From positions 42,676 through 106,675 of the forward strand of contig WMKJ01000038.1 in NCBI GenBank assembly GCA_009733715.1: a DNA stretch of 64,000 nt, written 5' to 3'. The stretch is from Herpomyces periplanetae (lineage: Eukaryota > Ascomycota > Laboulbeniomycetes > Herpomycetales > Herpomycetaceae). A program made the position numbers and the translations under genes. Shown one piece after another: positions 1,059-26,100 of the stretch (its first letter is position 1; each line of letters starts with the position of its first letter). Below the pieces are notes generated by a model, which saw nothing but the letters and a program-made list of their open reading frames with translations, ran no database searches and had not been told where the DNA came from.

Positions 1059-2912
1059 ATGGGGACTTCGCTAGACGAGTGTGAGTTATCATAGCGGAAG
1101 TGTATATCTTATGAGCGCGTTACTTTACAAGCAGAATCACGTATTGACTAACGAATGATCAACTCGTTTACAACGGCATTTTTAACCTCTATATTATAGT
1201 CAAGCTGGTGTTTTGTTTTTTCCTCTCGTTTCCCTTTGCCATGATATTGCGATGCATGGGTTTTTGTAAAGCTTGGGTCAAAGATACCTTTTGTATAAGG
1301 TCAGTCGGCAACCATTGATTAACGATACTGAGCAAGCGGGCGGGCGGGCGAGCGAGTGAGTTTATGTATACACATGTGTGCATACGCTCTTAGATCGACA
1401 TTGGACTCAACACACGCACGCGCACGCACACAAACATGCACACACACACGCTAACCTGCCAGATATGCACTTGGGAAATTATTATCAGTGTAACGCTCTT
1501 CTACCTTTTGGGATTGTTCAACCTGTGGAAAGGCTTGCAAACACTCGCGATCAGCGTTACTGTTGCGTACATTCTAGCTCGATATGTTGATCATAATTCA
1601 ATGCCATGGATAGCTTTAGCATTCCTCATGGGCCACCTAGCCGTCAGTCACATCAAACGTCAAGCCGTTAATGATGACTCTAGAGTTGACATTACTGGAG
1701 TGCAAATGGTTCTCGTTATAAAACTCAGTTCCTTTTGCTGGTACGTTCACGATAATCGTTGTCGTAAAGATAAATGTACAGGTAAAGATTCCCATCAATA
1801 TACGAACATGCCCAATATCCTAGACTTTTTAGCCTACCTATTGTTCTTCCCGGAATTATTTGCTGGACCAGCGTGTGAATTTTCCGAATTTCAACGTTAC
1901 ATCCATACTGGCTGCTATGGTGATGCGTTAGCAGATGCTGAGCAAAGCCGTGTACCCGTATCAAAGTTTTGCATTAATTGGCAAAGCATAACTACAGGAA
2001 TAAAGCGTGGATTCCAAGGAGTGGCCTGGTTATGCGCATTCGCGTACGCAGTGCGCTACTTTCCCGTTTCCAGATTGACTGACATTGACCAATTCGCGCA
2101 GTATAGCTTACCGGGGCGTGTTAGCCTAATATGTCTAGTAACTTTCGCAGTGCGTATGAAATACTATGCTGTATGGAACCTGGCGGAGGGTGCAGATATT
2201 TTATGTGGCATGGGTTACTCGGGCAGAGTTAACGGCAAAACTACGTGGAATGATCTAAGGAATATTAAACCTTTGAAAATTGAAACAGCCGGCAACATTC
2301 ATGCGTATATCGAAGGTTGGAATGTACGTACTAACCTTTGGCTTCGACAATCTGTCTTCACACGTGTAGCACGTAAAGGTCAGAAACCCGGTTTTGCTGC
2401 GACTATGGCGACGTTTATGGTTAGCGCTTTCTGGCATGGAATGTATCCGGGTTATTATTTTACATTTGTATTAGCCGGGCTAATGCAAGCTGTCGCAAAA
2501 AGTGAGTGTGCACAAATAACGGGTTTGTGGATTGTGAGCTCACGCATACCCTACCGTCACATGCAATAATGCCATCACAAAAGCGTGCGCATGACAAGAC
2601 TAACTTTAAATGTGTATAACTACAGAAGCACGAAAAAACGTTCGACCTTACTTTGTCGATGGAAAATTTCACAAGTACAAACGTGTGTACGATGTAATAA
2701 CGTGGTTTTTGACAAAGATTGTTATGGACTTTACCGCAATCCCGTTTATAGTTCTGCGATGGGATTGGACCAAAAATGTATGGAGACAAGTATATTACTA
2801 TGGTATAATCGCCATAGGATTAGGCATGGTGGGAGTGAATATGCTGGAAAAAATGCGACAAAAGCATGGAAGCAAGAATGAAAGAATAATAGAACAGACA
2901 AAAGCGGCGTAA
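1059..2912 (+). CDS. ALE1: MBOAT lysophospholipid acyltransferase, Ale1-like
   Basis: Membrane-bound O-acyltransferase that re-acylates lysophospholipids with acyl-CoA in the ER (Lands cycle). Proposed exons are 1059-1080, 1200-1299, 1489-2501 and 2626-2912, giving 473 aa, against about 620 in S. cerevisiae Ale1. The introns start GTGAGT, GTCAGT and GTGAGT, and phases join cleanly. The join restores the family N-terminus, a hydrophobic C-F-F-L-S-F-P-F segment followed by S-V-T-L-F-Y-L-L-G. Later come M-G-H-L, the F-A-G-P-A motif near residue 165, the W-N pair near 319, and the catalytic A-F-W-H-G-M-Y-P-G-Y-Y with His357. Multiple hydrophobic segments are visible throughout. The second intron carries a CA/CG microsatellite. 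It converges on CENP-A with 132 bp between stops. Family and the last two exons are secure; the first two exons rest on splice logic and similarity. Confidence 0.88.
1406..1450. repeat. CA/CG-rich microsatellite inside ALE1 intron
   Basis: Alternating ACGC/ACAC dinucleotides, ending just before a CTAAC branch-like sequence. It sits in the proposed second intron of ALE1 (1300-1488). A frame running through it encodes only His/Thr repeats and is not a protein start. Confidence 0.7.
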
Positions 2913-3044
2913 CGCGAAACGGCGAGCAATGAAGGGTCAGGTCAAGCTGAGGTTTAACACACTGAATCAAAGCGAAATGATATGAGGAGTCGGATGATGC
3001 CGCCCACGCCGGGTAGCAACGTGCACGGAAATCCCGGTCAACGT

Positions 3045-3730
3045 CTACGCCAATGCGGACCATGCACCGCGTATACGACGAGCGAGCTGGATATCCTTTT
3101 GCATAATAGTAACTCGTTTTGCGTGTAATGCACATAGATTTGTATCTTCAAACAAGTGAACGAGAAATGCTTCAGAAGCTTCCTGTAACGCTTGAATAGC
3201 TTGTGATTGCCAACGTAACATTGACGTAGACGAAGCAGATGTGGAGGCCGGTGGTAGCATTTGCAAGGCTATTTCACGTACTAAACGTGCAAATGGGAGT
3301 TTAGCAATGAGCAATTGAGTCGTGCGTTGATACTGGCGAATTTCTTTAAGAGCCAGCGTACCAGGTCGGTAACGGCGAGATTTGGCGGGTTGAGGGCCAC
3401 CTGTAAATTTGTATAAAAGTGAACACGAGTGAGTAAATTAACCAGACTATGGGGAAGAAGTGAGGGAGTAGGGTTATATGCGTGCGTGCGTGTATACGTA
3501 CGCGAGGAGATTAATGCAGTTGAACGACGAGCGTGGGAAGTTCTCGCTGCGCCGGGTGGGGCAGTAGTACTATTATTGGGCGTAGATGATGAAGTTGATG
3601 AAGGCCTTGACCGGGGTGTAGAAGCCTGTCGATGGGAAGTACGATGTGATGTTGAACGATGTAGGTTACTAGTGTGATGCGAGCTCGTAGAGTATGGCCA
3701 ATTTTGTGAGCTATGGTGACGCGACGCCAT
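3045..3730 (-). CDS. CENPA: Centromeric histone H3 variant (CENP-A)
   Basis: The CENP-A homologue (Cse4/Cnp1) that replaces H3 in centromeric nucleosomes. Exons on the minus strand are 3730-3502 and 3400-3045; the 101-nt intron starts GTACGT and ends ACAG. The phase-1 join creates Arg77, giving 194 aa. The Ser/Arg/His-rich tail (1-86) is unlike H3. The fold begins at Y-R-P-G-T (87-91), then alpha-[11 protein letters not shown] (111-120), loop 1, R-W-Q-S (139-142), a long alpha-2 with F-L-V-H-L-F-E-D (155-162), and R-V-T-I-M-Q-K-D (172-179). Trp140 and Phe155 are CENP-A-type residues. Loop 1 (about 122-138) is roughly ten residues longer than in H3 and is Ser/Thr/Ala/Pro-rich. An in-frame upstream ATG would add about 20 aa; the Met-Ala-Ser start is preferred. 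A canonical H3 is excluded by the tail and loop. Confidence 0.95.
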
Positions 3731-5808
3731 CGTACTACCCTCCAATTTTGATCTACTGTACAATATTAAAGTTAGCCCTTCTTCTTTCACTTTCTAAATC
3801 GACCGTACCAACTCTTCCAAACTTGCGTTACCCTTGCCCAAATTCTTCCTTTACCTTCCCTGTACCATTAACGTCAATCGTGTCTATATCGGCTTTCCCC
3901 TCTAACGTTTACCCACCCTTAATCAACCTTTCCACCGCTCGCCGTGCCCACTCTTCCGCACCCCAAAACCATCCAATTCTTATCCCCTGGTGCTTACAAA
4001 AAAGGAACAGCAATAACAAGAAAAAACTAAGTATATACAATTCAAAGCATAAATTTAAGAAAATGATCTAGGGCATAAGTAAGAACTAATTGCACAAAAG
4101 TTAAAGTAAAATGAAAAAGAAAATAAAAGGCGCGACGCTATCGTGATAATCGACGTCGCGACGACTCCTCACGTGACCGCATGTGACGTTTCTCGGGCGT
4201 CACGTTACCGTCCCGAGTGCAGGGAAGGTGCGAAGCTGACCCGTCCCAGTCGGGAATCCTCGACCTCGACCACCCGCCGGGAAGTCGCAGCCCAAGCCTT
4301 CTTTCCGCTTCCGGCACATCAGGTGATTTTCAAACGGTTTGCTCTGTTGAAGATTGCGCTGTTGATGTTGCTTTTAAGGCCGTTGCTACTCTCGCTTTTG
4401 CTTTTGCTTACGCTTTCGTTGTCACTTTGGTTCAATTTGTCGTCGTTTTCTTCTCTCCTGAACCTTATCATACATGCTATCTCGGCGGTGATCTTACGGG
4501 TGATCCTAACACTGATCGTCAATGTCTACAAATGCCCTCTCTCTACTAGTTTTCTGCAGGGTAATGCCTTATCATTCCATGTTATGCCATACCTATCTTT
4601 TAATGCTGTCTATACACACTCTACTCAACTCCTCAAACTCGTTCACCCGGTTCATTCCATTCTTACATGCTCGATTCCTCTTGGATAATCTTGTACCTTC
4701 AACCATGTCATTGCTCAGTTACACCCTGTTATGGCTAGTTACCCATTGATTCATGTACCATTATTGCTATATCAACTTGGTTAATCTAACCAATTTGCTT
4801 CCTCTACCATATTCACCTATGGAACGACAATCTTAAAGCTGAAATTTTCGCTCCAACGTTACCCATTGGAACAGTCCATGCAACTTAAGTAGAATCATAA
4901 AATAATTAATACATCCAAAGTTGATCAATGTATTACCTTTATCGCAAAAATGCAGAGCCTATCGTTACTAATGCCCTCCCATAAATATAATTCCATTAAC
5001 GTTTGCCAACCGTATTACACCCTCCCCCTTAAGAATATAACATCTTCGAGAATATCGTATGCAATACAACGCTTGACACACAGCTACCGTTCATGCTCTG
5101 TGTTAAATTAAACCAGGTATACCTTATACTCCCCACGCCCTACTCGTTGTACGCCCCTCTTCTGCCTCATCACACCAATTGCCCTGGAATCGGTCAATCA
5201 TTCAATCAATGAAAAATTTTCAACTTGGGGCACCGCTCTTCTTCAATAGTCCGCTTCTCCGCACCGCTATATCAATCTCATGGGTAAAAGCTACCGTAGT
5301 ACTGTACCATCCGTCGTTACAATACGCCCAGCATGAGCGTCTCTCAAGTATTTGCATACACCCTTCCCTTCTCCTTCATTATTGACTCGTTAAATGTTAA
5401 AGTTTATGTTAACCTTCCTAGTATTCGCACCTTATCCCTAAATTCTCTTCATTTATGCCTTTACGTAGCACTCGCAATTTGCATTTCTTCTATCCATTGC
5501 CCTAATAGATTTCCACGGTAATGGTCCATTCATTATCCATGGAAAACCCCATAAGATTAACTAGCTCATTCAATTTTCCGTATATAAATGCTTTGCACTA
5601 CGCCCTTCCAACTTCCTGGAATTCATCACTCCTACCCACAGACCATTCATTCTTCACCATTCTCACTTGTACATGTACAAGCTTGCCTTTACTTGATATA
5701 TTGGCAACTTCGTCATATCCTTTTCGTATGGTTAATCTTTTCTCTTGCCCTTAATTCATTTAGTACATTTCCCTTCGTTCCTAAGTCTCCCATTATTATC
5801 TCAACTCA
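3731..5808. other. Divergent intergenic region, CENP-A / GH16
   Basis: About 2.1 kb between two divergent starts. A GC-richer patch at about 4140-4320 holds CACGTG at 4170-4175. Just after it is an inverted pair of GTGACG/CGTCAC hexamers (about 4183-4203) containing a TGACGT CRE-like core. The rest is C/T-rich on the plus strand. Open frames here are long but hydrophobic low-complexity translations without domains, so no gene is called. Confidence 0.5.
4168..4204. promoter_or_regulatory. E-box plus CRE-like inverted repeat
   Basis: CACGTG (4170-4175) in a CTCACGTGAC context is followed by TGACGT and a GTGACG/CGTCAC inverted repeat with a 9-nt spacer. The cluster is about 440 bp upstream of the CENP-A start. 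bHLH and bZIP binding is inferred from motif shape only. Confidence 0.35.
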
Positions 5809-8496
5809 ATGTCTCTCACTAAACTGTTCACTTTGGCCCTCTTTCTTCCCTTTACTCTCGCCTACAAAGGCTGCTCTCAATTCGAAGAAATTGAATCCTA
5901 TAAACCCAGAGACTTTGTCAACAAATTCGACTTCTTTACCGACGAAGACCCTACCCATGGTTTCGTTAAATATGAGAGTAAAGAATCCGCCCGGAAAAAA
6001 AAATTATTTCATATCTCAAAAAAAGCTTTTAGATTTGGCGTCGATCACAAAAATATTCAACCAAATGGACGGAGCAGTATTCGTTTAACCAGCAAGAAAA
6101 CTTTCGGTAACGGTCTTTTCATCTTAAATTTAGTTCATATGCCAGGCAGTGCTTGCGGATCATGGCCTGCTTTCTGGATGTTCGGCCCAAATTGGCCTCA
6201 TAACGGTGAAATTGATATATTTGAAGGTGTTCATTATCAAAAGTCAAGTAGAATGGCTTTACATACCGTCGATGGTTGCAAAATTAAAATCGAAGACAAC
6301 AATCCATTCACCGGTTCGATTCATACTCCCAACTGTGATATTAATGCTGCTGGTCAATACACTAACGAAGGATGTGCTATCAATGCTAATGATACTATAA
6401 CTCCAAAAACCTTCGGTACAAGTTTCAATGAAAATCGTGGTGGTGTATACGCTACTGAATACAAGGATGATGCCGTAAAAATTTGGTTTTTCCCTCGTGA
6501 AGCAATTCCCCGCGATATTAAACGTGGCAAACCCCGTCCTGATAAGTGGCCTTTACCTATAGCTCGTCTCGGTGGTGACTGTGATATTGCAAGGAAATGG
6601 TCTAATATGTCCATCATCTTCAACACTGCTTTCTGCGGTGATTGGGCTGGAAATACGTGGAGTGTCACGCCAGAATGTAAAAACTTGGCTCCCACTTGTT
6701 CAGAATATGTACGGGACAATCCAACAGCATTCAATGAGACATACTGGAAAATCCGGTACTTGAAAGTATATCAACATGTTCCCGAGGAAAAAATCGCTAC
6801 TTGCCGTAAGGAAAAAAAAGAAAGAAAATATGGACAAGTCCCTGTTCAACAATCTGCTAATTCAGACCAAGACAACAAAACTATGGTTCAAGCTTCCCCC
6901 ACCCTAGTAACCCAACCTGCCTCAAATCAACCCATTTCGACTACTCGTCCAAATACTCCAGTTAATCCAGTTCAACCGATAGTGCCATTAATTCATATAC
7001 CACCACCACCTCCAGTTCCTCCATACCCAGTAATACAATTTCAACCGAATACCAAACCTCCCGTTTATCCGAGTAACCCTGCTCCTCCAATCAGGCCACC
7101 GATCGCAACTGAATTCCACATCCTACCTTCCCAGAATCCCGTAGTGTATCCTTTACTACCAACTCCACCTATCATCCAAACTTCTCAATCAGGTTGGATA
7201 CCATGGTCAGAATGGCAAAATCATCCTTTTCCACCACCACCACCACCACCAATTATAACATTAACACGTCCAGCTAGCATTCAGCCAGGACTTTACCAGA
7301 ATAACCATGCTGCATATGCGGCCCCTCCCAAGCCAAACGGACCCTTGTATAAACGACAATTGACAACTAACACACCAAAACCTTCTTTCATTGCCGCTAG
7401 AAACGCACTTAAGTTAATAGAAGCATCAAACTCAAAAAAATCGGCCGTTTCATCCAGTGTACACAACCCTGAACCCTCACCAAATGATACCATGACAGTC
7501 TTGCCCATTGAAGTTGACCAAATAAAACATCTCCTAGAGTATAGAACCCTTTACCAAAGTTTAAAGAATATTGAACATCGTATAAAGGGCCAGACTACAG
7601 GAAATACTGACAAGGCAGATGTTGACCTTATCGCTAGCAATGGCATCGAATTTACCACTGCGGCACAGCAACATCAATTGGAAGATATGCTCCCGGAAGA
7701 TAATGATTCGATTCATTCATCATCGTCCGACAGGAAAAAGCGTGATACTCTGAATCACCCCAAACCACCCCAATCCCATCAGTCAACTTATACCCTTTTG
7801 TTCGCCCCATTAACTGACACACAATACAATTCCATACCCACGAAGAAACCGTCCGCAACAATTAAGGCCAGTGCAAACACAAAATTATTTTCACTGCTGA
7901 ATAGCTTTGGGCCCGGACACCAAAAAATTGCCATGTATCGAATTCCAGAAAGCCAAGTGGATAACTTTATACGGAATATCACCGAAGAGTACCAAACGAA
8001 AAATATTACCGCAAATGATACACTTGACAAAGATCGAGAAGAGTTGCATCCAAACTGGCGCAATAAAACCCCCCAATTTGATAGCTTAATGTCCGATGAT
8101 AATGCTGATACTGCGCCCTCAGAAACATCTACTACTATGAATGCTAATAATGGCGCCAAAGCCGACAGTAGTAAAGATGCGGATTCATTATTTACCAAAA
8201 CAATCGGGGAATATTTTATGGATCGGACACCTCAATCGGATCAGTCAAGATCTCGTATTCAATTTATAATTACCCGTATTAACGTAGATACGGACTTGGA
8301 TAATCCAAATGCAGAAGTTGACCATGACCCTACAACGGAATCGGAGACTAATAAAACATTAGTCGATTTGTCCCATGATGTTCTTCCAAATTTTACAGGG
8401 AAAAACGTCCAAAATAATGATTCCGAGTTTATTTCCAAGCACACAAGTGACTTATCAAATCGACAGACCGTTCGTAGAATCATGGGTTCTAAATAA
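5809..8496 (+). CDS. Secreted GH16 beta-glucanase-like protein with long tail
   Basis: A single-exon 895-aa protein. A signal peptide (about 1-18, hydrophobic L-F-L-P-F-T-L-A) is followed by a GH16 domain (about 25-330). That domain carries the catalytic E-x-D-x-x-E as E134, D136 and E139 in G-E-I-D-I-F-E-G. A W-P-A-F-W-M-F-G segment lies just upstream. These are hallmarks of fungal endo-1,3(4)-beta-glucanase-type enzymes acting on cell-wall or exogenous beta-glucan. Residues about 370-540 are proline-rich with PPPPP runs, and 540-895 are Ser/Thr/Asn/Asp-rich. A K-K-R-D site at 643-646 looks like a Kex2 cleavage site. No C-terminal hydrophobic GPI signal is visible. The typical fungal member is about 300-650 aa, so the tail is the unusual part. 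Exact substrate is not determinable. Confidence 0.88.
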   Translation: MSLTKLFTLALFLPFTLAYKGCSQFEEIESYKPRDFVNKFDFFTDEDPTHGFVKYESKESARKKKLFHISKKAFRFGVDHKNIQPNGRSSIRLTSKKTFGNGLFILNLVHMPGSACGSWPAFWMFGPNWPHNGEIDIFEGVHYQKSSRMALHTVDGCKIKIEDNNPFTGSIHTPNCDINAAGQYTNEGCAINANDTITPKTFGTSFNENRGGVYATEYKDDAVKIWFFPREAIPRDIKRGKPRPDKWPLPIARLGGDCDIARKWSNMSIIFNTAFCGDWAGNTWSVTPECKNLAPTCSEYVRDNPTAFNETYWKIRYLKVYQHVPEEKIATCRKEKKERKYGQVPVQQSANSDQDNKTMVQASPTLVTQPASNQPISTTRPNTPVNPVQPIVPLIHIPPPPPVPPYPVIQFQPNTKPPVYPSNPAPPIRPPIATEFHILPSQNPVVYPLLPTPPIIQTSQSGWIPWSEWQNHPFPPPPPPPIITLTRPASIQPGLYQNNHAAYAAPPKPNGPLYKRQLTTNTPKPSFIAARNALKLIEASNSKKSAVSSSVHNPEPSPNDTMTVLPIEVDQIKHLLEYRTLYQSLKNIEHRIKGQTTGNTDKADVDLIASNGIEFTTAAQQHQLEDMLPEDNDSIHSSSSDRKKRDTLNHPKPPQSHQSTYTLLFAPLTDTQYNSIPTKKPSATIKASANTKLFSLLNSFGPGHQKIAMYRIPESQVDNFIRNITEEYQTKNITANDTLDKDREELHPNWRNKTPQFDSLMSDDNADTAPSETSTTMNANNGAKADSSKDADSLFTKTIGEYFMDRTPQSDQSRSRIQFIITRINVDTDLDNPNAEVDHDPTTESETNKTLVDLSHDVLPNFTGKNVQNNDSEFISKHTSDLSNRQTVRRIMGSK

Positions 8497-21107: not shown

Positions 21108-22981
21108 ATGACACCAGTGCCAACAACCAGTCAAGAAAATTCAAGCTCTTTCAGCGGGTTTACCCTTGGAGAATTTTTGCCCGTACAATTAAACAGGGAT
21201 AGCGTAGGTTGGGGTATAATACGACTTTATCGCGACGCAAAAGGTGTCGAATGCACCGAAAATTCTTGGTCCAAAGACGAGCAACCCGAGACAAAGAACA
21301 AATATTGGGCAAACTCAAAACTTCAAAACTCCCCAAAATCTGGCCGTACTTTCAACAACAAAGAGCTTTCCCAATGTTCCATTCTCTGCGTTCTGGCCGT
21401 ACCTTCGTGTATGACATGGTCGGACTTTTTAGTGTTCGCCGGCGACGACGTGCGAATGGACGTCAGCCACTTTAGGCTACTTCGAACGAGTCGCCCAAAC
21501 AGATACATGGTATTAATGAAATTTCGGTCTCCTCAAAAAGCACAATGTTGGTATGAACAGTGGAATGGCCGTCAATTCGGTTGTAGCGCTGATGCGGAAC
21601 CGTGTTCCGTAGTATTCGTCAAATCCGTCACGTTTCAAACCTCCGACATCAGTCAAGGCGTCGTATCATTTCCTTCCATGGAAAATGATCCCTTTGTACC
21701 CTATTCCCAAGTTTCCTCAAGTGAAACCAGAACTTCATCATCATCATCATCAATGGGAGTTTTTTCCGTCGTTGAAATGCCAACCTGCCCCGTTTGCTTG
21801 GAGCGAATGGACGATTTATCCGGAATAATGACAATCCTTTGTCAACATGTATTTCATTGTGACTGCCTACGCAAATGGCGCGGTAGTGGATGCCCTGTGT
21901 GTAGGCATACTCATGAACAAAAAACTAAAACTAATCCAAAAGTGAGCAAGCCTTCATGTCATGCATGTGGCTTGACAGCGGATCTATGGATATGGTAAGT
22001 TAAATCGCCTTGATCAACCAGTCATTCCTTTACAAAAATACTTTCATACCTATTGTATACCTTAGTCCAATATCACGCTAATAACCGTTCAATCCTTTTT
22101 ACAGTTTACTCTGTGCCAACGTTGGATGTGGACGTTACAGCTCAGGTCATGCAATTGCGCATTATGAGGAAACCGGTCATGCTTTTGTAATGGATATCGT
22201 AACCCAGTATGTTTGGGATTACTCGGGTGATTGTTATGTGAATGATAATATTGACGAAAAACTTTCTACCGATTTATTCAACGTAACCTTGGATCAAACC
22301 ACTTCAAAATCTCAATGTTATACACGAGACACAAGTGAAATTGTTGAAATGTTAGCCCTCTTTGACCAATTAGACGACAAATTACAAGAAAGTACCGCTT
22401 CCTTGAACCCCAAGCATATCGAGTTATTTAGCCGTCAATTACAACGGCAACGCATATATTACGAAGATCAGCTTGCGCGCGCCAAAGAAAATGCTTGGGA
22501 ACTTTCAACGGAAAAAGAGGTAACCCTGAAAAAAATTGTCAAACTGGAAGCCCAGATATCGGAGATAAAGGGTTGCAGGGAAAAGACTGAAGACTCACTA
22601 TCCCAAACCCAACGTGAATTGGATAAATCCGAACGGAAAAGAAAAGCCGCCGACCTAAAATGGAGACAGTACGAGAGGGAGCTTTTGGAAGAAAAATCCC
22701 TAAATTCTGCACTAATGGGTAAGATTGTCTATTTGGATCAAAAGGTTCAGGAACTGTCCAAACGGGAGACTGAGCTAGAAAAAGAACGTGATGGCTTAAA
22801 GGAAGAAAATCGGGATTTGGCCTTTTTTATTAGTTCAAGGGATAAACTGGCACAAGAGGACATTGGGAATGATGTTGTCGAGGGTTTTCTTCGTGTAGGC
22901 CATCCCCAAGATTCTTCAATCTTGCATTCTTCTACTCCCCCCGCATCCCAAAAGCGCCGAAATCGAAAACGTCGTACTTGA
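21108..22981 (+). CDS. ETP1: BRAP2-type RING/UBP zinc-finger ubiquitin ligase, Etp1-like
   Basis: Homologue of human BRAP2 and yeast Etp1, a cytoplasmic ubiquitin-binding E3. Exons are 21108-21994 and 22105-22981 (587 aa). The 110-nt intron starts GTAAGT and ends TTTACAG; the join creates a zinc-ligand Cys in L-W-I-C-L-L-C. Domains in order are an N-terminal RRM-like region (about 103-190; F-L-V-F-A-G-D-D, Y-M-V-L-M-K-F) and a RING finger (227-268, C-P-V-C-L-E-R ending G-C-P-V-C-R). A UBP zinc finger follows (about 284-345; C-H-A-C-G, C-G-R-Y, H-A-I-A-H-Y, H-A-F-V). A long coiled coil (about 400-540) ends the folded part, with a basic K-R-R-N-R-K-R-R tail. Domain order and length are typical. 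It converges on COG4 with 123 bp between stops. Confidence 0.96.
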
Positions 22982-23104: not shown

Positions 23105-26100
23105 TTAATCAGTATGAGGCATTAGAGCACGAACTCTACGACGTTCATTTGAATCAAGGGCCCATGATTTTTGTGCGCCAGGAAGGCAAGAAGAACGAAC
23201 ATTATCTGTCAAAGATGATGGTGACATAGACTCAAGTTCATTCCATTCTTCACTGTCCATACTAAGTATTAACAGCATTTGCTGGCATCTTGCAAATGCG
23301 GCGTGAATAGCTAAACGCATAGCGTAAACTATGTCAAAATAGTAATCTGTTAACGAGTACATATTTGAGTTTGCCTTATTATCAGTATAGTGATTAGTGC
23401 ACGCCGAAAGGGTATCGTGGATCGGCGATTTGTTGACGGGCATGTGTAGCGTGGAATCAAGTTGATGTGTATCCGAAGCTAAACTAACAAGGTTTCGAAT
23501 AAACAAATCAAGTTTCAGTTCCAACAAGGCCGTCTCGTAAGATGATATATCCTTCATAAGCCAAATACGATGTTCAATGTAACCTGCCAGATATGATGCT
23601 GTAGTCAAAATTATTCGATGAGCTGGGGGTAAGTAAGATGGCATTGGCGATAGTGTCGACGATGACGAGCTAACCAAGTGCAGGGATCGAGCCGCATGGC
23701 CCGAAAGTGACGTTAGACAAGTTAACACCGCCGGTGGCATAAGACGCAATACGGGTAAAAGTAGTGCATTTAAACGCGGCAAAAAACGTTGTTTCACGTA
23801 ATTAAGACAGGGTGACGATTGGCTCGATGTCCATGCATGTTCCCCCGTACTCTCACTCTGCAAAGGTTCATGGTGTTGATTCCGCTCGGGAAATATTAGC
23901 CCAGTTGAATGACCAAGAAGAATCCTTAGGGCTGGTTTAACACGAATATTAAACAGAACTGAGATACTTTCATCTATCAACGCGCTAACCTTGGCCGAGA
24001 ATGTACTTATAAAATGGACTAAATCATGATAAACTACGATTGCATCAGAAAAATCGTCGCCCTCATGAACTTTTGGTAATACTTCGCCCATATCATCAGC
24101 CGTATTAAAAGGAAAAAGTGTCTGTAAGGCTAAAGGAATCTCCTGTGACAGTGTAACTTGGGGTGAAGGTAAGACTGTTGTTGTGTCACAAGATGAAATA
24201 AAAATTCGTATCATGTAGACAATAGTAGCATCGAGATTGTTGATCAACAAGATATAGTCAAAATGATTTGGGGTGAGGAACGTAAATCTCATGTTAAGAA
24301 AAAGCGATTTAGATGATGAATTATGCAATGAAGAACTATAAGTTTTCGACCTGGATAATGGATCTCGATAATCCGGAAAAGGTGGATGTTGAAGAGACTG
24401 TCTCTCGTATGAAAGTCGCTTTTGAATCGTGGCAATAAAATCAGAGAGTAGAATCCGCGAAACGTTAAAAATAGAATTTTTGAAAAACTTGTACTGCCCC
24501 GTCACTAGACTCTTCGTCACAATTTTATCAATAATATACATTATATCATCGATAATTGAACTGATAAAGGGTTGAGAGGGTAAGGGAACTTGCTTAAGTG
24601 CTAAACATTCCATATGCATGCTAAGATCTGCTTCATCATGTTCATTCATTTCATTAGATTGCAAGTCACTGTCATGCATAAAACTTGACCGTGAGCTACG
24701 AGTACTGACGTTATTATCCTCAGTAAACATCACGTTGACCCGACTATTGCATGTAGAAATAAACGTATTAATTTGTCGTATAAGATTAACCGGAATTTCT
24801 TCCAAGTAGAATGCTTTTTCAATGGTTCCACGGGTCAAACACGAAATGAATTGGTTGAAAGGTTCAAAAATATTCACCATGATCTTATCCTGAAACGTAG
24901 AATCTTGAATGAATCGTGGGACATTTACGCCCTTGGAGGGAAGTGAAGAGGTAGGTTGATCAATCCTTTTAGACACAAAACGTGTGTAGATTGACCATTG
25001 ACCCAAAATGATAATCATTTCATTAAAGATTAAGTCAACAATTTTTAAGTCAATTAACTCCGCATCACCAGCTAACACCTTTTTTCCTGACATTGTATCA
25101 GGTAACGGGGTACTCATTTTACCGCTAGCCTTAGCACCAAGGCTTGTAGTTGACACTGAAATGTTGCCCGGAGCAGGTACCTTTAAAATTTTGAGAAGAT
25201 ATGGAAAACTGTACGATTTAAGTTCAAGGGATTTGCGTAAAATATCACGATATTCAAACCAATTTTCAACAAGTAAACCTGCTTGAATATCGACGTCTCT
25301 TTGAATTCGTTGAATAACGTAGACAATCATATCGCGACCGTAATACTGCTCAATTAAACTTTCATGGGAGTTAATAAGATTCATTACATGTTCGAATAAG
25401 CTAGATAAAAGGCACACGTATACGGATTCCCGGGTGAAAGTGTTGTCATCTTTGAGCTTATTGTCGACGAGAGAAAAATTTTTTCGGGCTCGAGCGACAA
25501 TGCCGCGCGAAACGTATTCAGAGTAGGCTTGAATGCCTCGTTCATCGCATCCGATTAAGGGAAACAATTTGAAAAAACGACTAACGCCAATACCATCCTC
25601 CTTAGCTGCAGCCGTTCGGAATTGTTCAAGGAAGATATCGCAAAGAGAATTTTGCGCAGTCTTTAAGCTAACACTTGGCTTGTCAGGAAGATTTGCCGTA
25701 GGTATCATTTTTTGGCAAAATTCACTGTCAATCAACTCAAATGGAATATTTCGTGTACGATAAATATAATTAGCAGCGGCCTCCCAGTCATGAACTGTTT
25801 CCATGCAGCCATATGCACCCATGATACATGCTTTAAGCTCGATAACGCGATTAACGGCTTCAAGTGCAGTATAAACGTTATCACATTCCTTGATTAAACG
25901 TCGAACTCGCGCTAGTAAACCTTGAGCAGATTTAGCTGATTCATCAACGAGTAATTTCTGAACTTTACGAGCTTCATCTCTTTCACGTTTAATAGCCGTA
26001 TATATTTTTGTACAATCCGCTGTTAACGTATTAACTTGCATTAAGTTTCCCGAAGCCAAAGTCGATGACACTGATACACTGTCATGGCCATTAAAAACAT

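Follow-up and report, generated by a model that had tools for sequence, protein, structure and literature searches.

The locus at positions 3730-3045 of a 64,000-nucleotide stretch of Herpomyces periplanetae DNA, referred to in the following as the window, raises the question of how far loop 1 of a centromeric histone can be lengthened and what such a lengthening may mean for the way in which the centromere is read. The gene lies on the reverse strand and consists of two exons and one intron encoding a product of 194 amino acids. Exon 1 (3502..3730) is an open frame that starts with the ATG at 3730 and encodes an N-terminal tail rich in Ser, Thr, His, Pro and Arg; a 101-nt intron (3401..3501, GTACGT...TTACAG) separates it from exon 2 (3045..3400), which carries the complete histone fold, the C-terminal GAWSALA and the stop codon TAG (3047-3045), all on the same strand. 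The intron was picked by eye among mechanically listed GT-AG pairs on the basis of splice-site consensus and frame; with some of the alternative pairs found in the mechanical scan, the N-terminal tail would come out shorter or longer, which leaves its boundary uncertain.

The identity of the protein was established at several levels. The exon 2 frame (query P0001) matches the Pfam Histone family with 134.7 bits across residues 9-116, the best match in the PDB is Schizosaccharomyces pombe Cnp1 (9LRV/9LRW; E 1.2e-43), and the identity with the H3 of the same fungus is 70% across the matched region. The position of H3 Q68 is occupied by Ala (LPFARL versus LPFQRL) and that of H3 F84 by Trp (RWQ versus RFQ), both being changes of the CENP-A type: loss of the conserved alpha-1 Gln is given as a CENP-A criterion in excerpts of PMC7052976 and PMC7598501, and replacement of F84, often by Trp, in excerpts of PMC7598501 and PMC3156773. 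The replacement of H3 Thr107 (108 if Met is counted) is also among the criteria in the available text of PMC7598501, but Thr is kept in the present protein (EDTNLC); this replacement is not defining in fungi, because S. pombe Cnp1 and Cse4 also keep Thr. The tail, of about 77 residues with an exact end that depends on the choice of intron, lacks ARTKQTARKS and is unrelated to that of H3. In the genome searched (13,790,361 bases in 220 contigs), the two scored candidates proved to be one CENP-A and one H3. As far as sequence can tell, the protein is CENP-A. No second copy turned up in the genome, and this one is presumably functional. The identity proposed in the sequence-only reading is borne out by the histone fold, the Q68 to Ala and F84 to Trp changes, the divergent tail and the longer loop 1.

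The exposed loop 1 (3216..3266, reverse strand; 17 codons, 51 nt) was measured as the number of residues between the equivalents of REIA and of R/N-W/F-Q. On this ruler, 17 residues separate REIA (118-121) from RWQ (139-141) in CENP-A, as had been proposed, versus 7 in the fungus' own H3, so that the loop is 10 residues longer, while the fold is conserved on both sides of it in the alignment with H3 and Cnp1. The description of the loop as Ser/Thr/Ala/Pro-rich throughout applies to one continuous run of 11 residues, but not to the remaining 6 of the 17, which are Leu, Gln and Met. These four residues make up a share of 0.65 of the loop, which is closer to the 0.60 of the tail than to the 0.26 of the fold. 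Ten-residue stretches with at least 9 Ser, Thr, Ala or Pro are rare (11 of 6349 in the 13 stop-to-stop frames of at least 250 amino acids found in the window), and the loop is more than a chance product because such stretches are rare and because the reading frame stays open across a conserved histone fold. Furthermore, the five Ser codons of the loop are TCC, TCT, TCG, TCT and TCA and the codons for Ser, Thr, Ala and Pro are all varied; therefore, the loop is not the product of a recent codon-repeat expansion, although such variety would also fit selection for a particular loop sequence. No charged residue is present in the loop, which contains neither Arg nor Gly.

How unusual such a loop is depends on the terms of comparison. 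Loop 1 comprises 9 residues in human CENP-A and in Drosophila melanogaster CID, 10 in Cse4 (with an anchor that we take to lie before EVT) and 13 in Cnp1, and the present loop ranks first among the five CENP-As measured, this protein included, exceeding that of Cnp1 by 4 in what is a small sample drawn from solved structures; an Arabidopsis CENH3 query of the PDB gave no match at E 1e-20. Fungal CENP-A loops commonly measure about 10-13 residues and in some cases include Pro-Pro; here, this range of lengths is represented by Cse4 and Cnp1 only. The idea that CENP-A proteins usually lengthen loop 1 by one to a few residues fails with Cnp1, which has 6 more than H3 in the PDB alignment. The length is thus the greatest of the five, but its unusualness had been overstated in view of the 13 residues of Cnp1 and the 14 that the D. 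virilis Cid paralogues have by the authors' own definition (excerpts of PMC8200288). Indeed, a longer loop 1 is used as an identification mark of CENP-A in the available parts of PMC7052976, PMC11633173, PMC4359364, PMC7598501 and PMC3156773, and a loop 1 that is longer and cannot be aligned is recognised as a hallmark of these proteins. The 17-residue loop is a modest extreme, at the long end of a known variable range, rather than a new kind of thing.

The individual comparisons bring out the character of the loop. Cnp1 has the same fold, the RWQ at alpha-2, HLFEDTNLC and a long loop 1, which, however, is 4 residues shorter and contains 2 charged residues. Cse4 of Saccharomyces cerevisiae is likewise a CENP-A with a lengthened loop, but this contains 5 charged residues, and loop-1 residues matter for CBF3 binding in budding yeast (passages of PMC10755175). 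Human CENP-A has a lengthened loop 1 in its CATD, with 3 charged residues; according to the text available from PMC5777823, CENP-N reads R80-G81 of this loop by charge and shape, Arg-Gly being, in that source and in excerpts of PMC7475651, the two-residue insertion that is recognised, whereas the present loop has 17 residues, no charge and no such insertion. In Drosophila Cid the loop is lengthened too, carries 4 charged residues in CID, varies in length and is tied to the chaperone, which is CAL1 in the fly; here Scm3 is present. Loop 1 co-evolves with CAL1 according to excerpts of PMC8015243.

In the titles of the literature matches listed and in the running text available from them, as distinct from figures and supplements, a loop 1 as long as this one is not reported for any fungal CENP-A. 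Exon 2 found no relatives in the viral_contigs and genome_contigs collections, which are non-eukaryotic, and neither did an alignment of CENP-A and H3 in viral_contigs. The same alignment recovered 10 loci in genome_contigs, each an H3-type gene or the end of one within a bacterial MAG record; these are probably eukaryotic contamination. Eight of the 10 span loop 1, each with 7 residues and none of CENP-A type, and the other two correspond to the C-terminal part only. Some of the 10 loci apparently contain introns.

We regard it as probable that this CENP-A is functional and tolerates a neutral and probably flexible extension of its loop, that Scm3 deposits it and that its reading goes mainly through CENP-C. 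Loop 1 would be a 10-residue addition with respect to H3, a neutral Pro-Ala-Ser-Thr stretch leading from alpha-1 to the arginine with which alpha-2 begins (LRWQ). The counterpart of this arginine, located just before the Trp, is H3 R83, which contacts DNA. With the fold, the pre-Trp arginine and alpha-2 all preserved, one would expect the protein to form nucleosomes and to be deposited by its chaperone, Scm3, in the ordinary way. Two AlphaFold models, built from alignments of 2 and 8 sequences, have mean pLDDT values of 57.1 and 51.9, with no gain from the extra sequences; both leave residues 53-62 without helix (P0001 numbering, with the loop at 51-67), which, at such low confidence, is compatible with the alignment without being a test of it. 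The flexibility and the tolerance of the loop are inferred, as are the deposition and the route of reading.

Scm3 and several kinetochore components were found in the genome. Scm3 scores above its curated cut-off, with 70 bits in the profile search and 64.4 bits on translated frames, as do Ndc80 (158.2 bits) and Mis12 (192.8 bits). CENP-C_C, the Mif2/CENP-C C-terminal domain, reaches 95.5 bits against a cut-off of 29 (91 bits on translated frames); this model also matched 8 of 14 control genomes, none of them above the cut-off, and the CENP-C call rests on the score exceeding it. The Mif2_N match of the same CENP-C protein is below the cut-off (19.2 versus 23.5). In the explanation preferred here, the kinetochore would most likely read the nucleosome via CENP-C, which would use the acidic patch and the CENP-A C-terminus, and not via charged contacts with loop 1.

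A different role for the loop would be that of a lineage-specific docking or regulatory site, recognised by a co-evolved partner of this fungus, be it a kinase, a chaperone or a component of the kinetochore, in the manner of CAL1 in Drosophila, CBF3 in budding yeast and CENP-N in vertebrates. The varied codons of the loop, at odds with a fresh repeat expansion, agree with this proposal, as does the fact that loop 1 partners differ by lineage, being CENP-N (PMC5777823), CAL1 (PMC8200288, PMC8015243) or CBF3 (PMC10755175) in the portions of these papers that were available. However, the loop is of low complexity, uncharged and tail-like, and no candidate partner emerged among the families searched (Scm3, CENP-C, CENP-N, CENP-L, CENP-I, CENP-H, CENP-T, Ndc80, Mis12 and Yippee-Mis18). 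The suggestion that the loop is phosphorylatable is relevant here. It does contain 7 Ser/Thr, but a scan for S/T-P, [RK]-x-S/T, S/T-x-x-[DE] and Polo patterns revealed none of the Aurora, CDK, CK2 or Polo motifs that were sought, and what is present is three S/T-x-x-S/T spacings of the CK1-like type, with one SQ in alpha-2. Basophilic, proline-directed and acidophilic sites being absent as well as Polo ones, the phosphorylation idea appears to find little support in the sequence of loop 1. Overall, a dedicated docking site seems an unlikely, though not far-fetched, origin of the extension.

Whether the loop is long because its reader is gone is a further question, which turns on the genes of the inner kinetochore. 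At E up to 1, nothing in the genome matched the CENP-N, CENP-L or CENP-I model. None of the 14 control genomes matched them either; the controls named in these searches are prokaryotes, and the searches had no positive control. CENP-H gave a single match, at E 0.179 and under the cut-off, and the protein behind it is a dynein heavy chain. CENP-T gave five matches; the only one above the cut-off is histone H4, as judged by its match to the H4 part of a PDB chain, and the other four are CENP-A itself, H3, CENP-S and a CBF/NF-Y-type protein. A Yippee-Mis18 match was also obtained, which by its motifs resembles Yippee more than Mis18; the Pfam model does not separate the two.

The absence of CENP-N, CENP-L and CENP-I from the genome is, from these results, suggestive only. 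If it were real, the fungus would have kept CENP-A, Scm3, CENP-C, Mis12 and Ndc80 and lost the CENP-L/N-H/I arm, loop 1 being an uncharged linker and the centromere being read via CENP-C alone, a combination that we hold to be improbable. That the disappearance of the CENP-L/N and CENP-H/I arm actually relaxed the constraint on loop 1 and, thereby, let it grow is quite doubtful. In its favour are the lack of CENP-N, CENP-L and CENP-I matches, the nature of the sole CENP-H match and of the sole CENP-T match above the cut-off, and the detection of Mis12, Scm3 and CENP-C by the same method. But introns and divergence can hide genes, the searches for CENP-N, CENP-L and CENP-I matched none of the controls, and CENP-S is present (50.6 bits), so that not every CCAN-type gene has gone, though CENP-S acts outside kinetochores as well. 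Mis15 is the CENP-N of S. pombe. With Mis15/CENP-N (excerpts of PMC9378642) and a 13-residue loop, this yeast indicates that the loss is unnecessary for a long loop, and budding-yeast CENP-N is reported, in the available text of PMC7475651, not to contact loop 1. Relaxation of constraint following CENP-L/N loss is, nevertheless, the most interesting of the readings that remain: a long uncharged CENP-A loop together with no detectable CENP-N would be a natural test of the share of the loop in centromere reading. At present, the finding extends the known range of loop lengths.

The gene model was also examined for possible splicing within exon 2. The 51-nt segment 3266-3216 contains GT but no AG, and no GT-AG intron can lie inside the loop, in agreement with what the sequence-only reading had concluded. 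A scan of exon 2 for frame-keeping GT-AG pairs, 35 nt or longer, that overlap the loop gave 34 pairs, none of which lies wholly within the loop and all of which remove REIA and RWQ. Since both motifs are conserved and would be deleted in every case, the loop segment is coding in a working CENP-A. A single pair of the 34 has the end hexamers of the intron at 3501-3401, namely the cryptic GTACGT...TTACAG pair detected by the mechanical scan at 3183..3281 (reverse strand, 99 nt, in frame), which spans REIA, the loop and the start of alpha-2, is probably unused and would destroy the fold if spliced. That the loop region is missing from some or most CENP-A transcripts, for instance because 3281-3183 is spliced out, is very improbable. 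The pair does preserve the frame without introducing a stop, and it resembles the intron in its hexamers and in length (99 versus 101 nt), but the end of alpha-1 and the start of alpha-2, helix parts conserved with H3 and Cnp1, would be removed along with the loop, leaving no fold.

The surroundings of the gene were also inspected. A sigma-70 promoter/terminator scan of 2900-3900 returned counts at the level of shuffled sequence, the scan being of a bacterial type that is inapplicable to a fungus. Convergent with CENP-A is a gene for an MBOAT acyltransferase (1394-2912, forward strand; Pfam MBOAT, 146.1 bits on 1394-2500), in which one intron was placed by eye before a short C-terminal exon (2610-2912) that has no Pfam match. 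Also on the forward strand, a GH16-type beta-glucanase gene (5809-8493) matches PDB 3WDT with E 9.8e-83 for 5809-6840, despite the fact that Pfam finds no family at E 0.001 in 5812-8493; by eye, its product has a signal peptide, and its long C-terminal region is of low complexity. Elsewhere in the genome, on contig C198, the genes for H4 (22383-22574) and for the only H3 found (25256-25624) lie about 2.7 kb apart on opposite strands.
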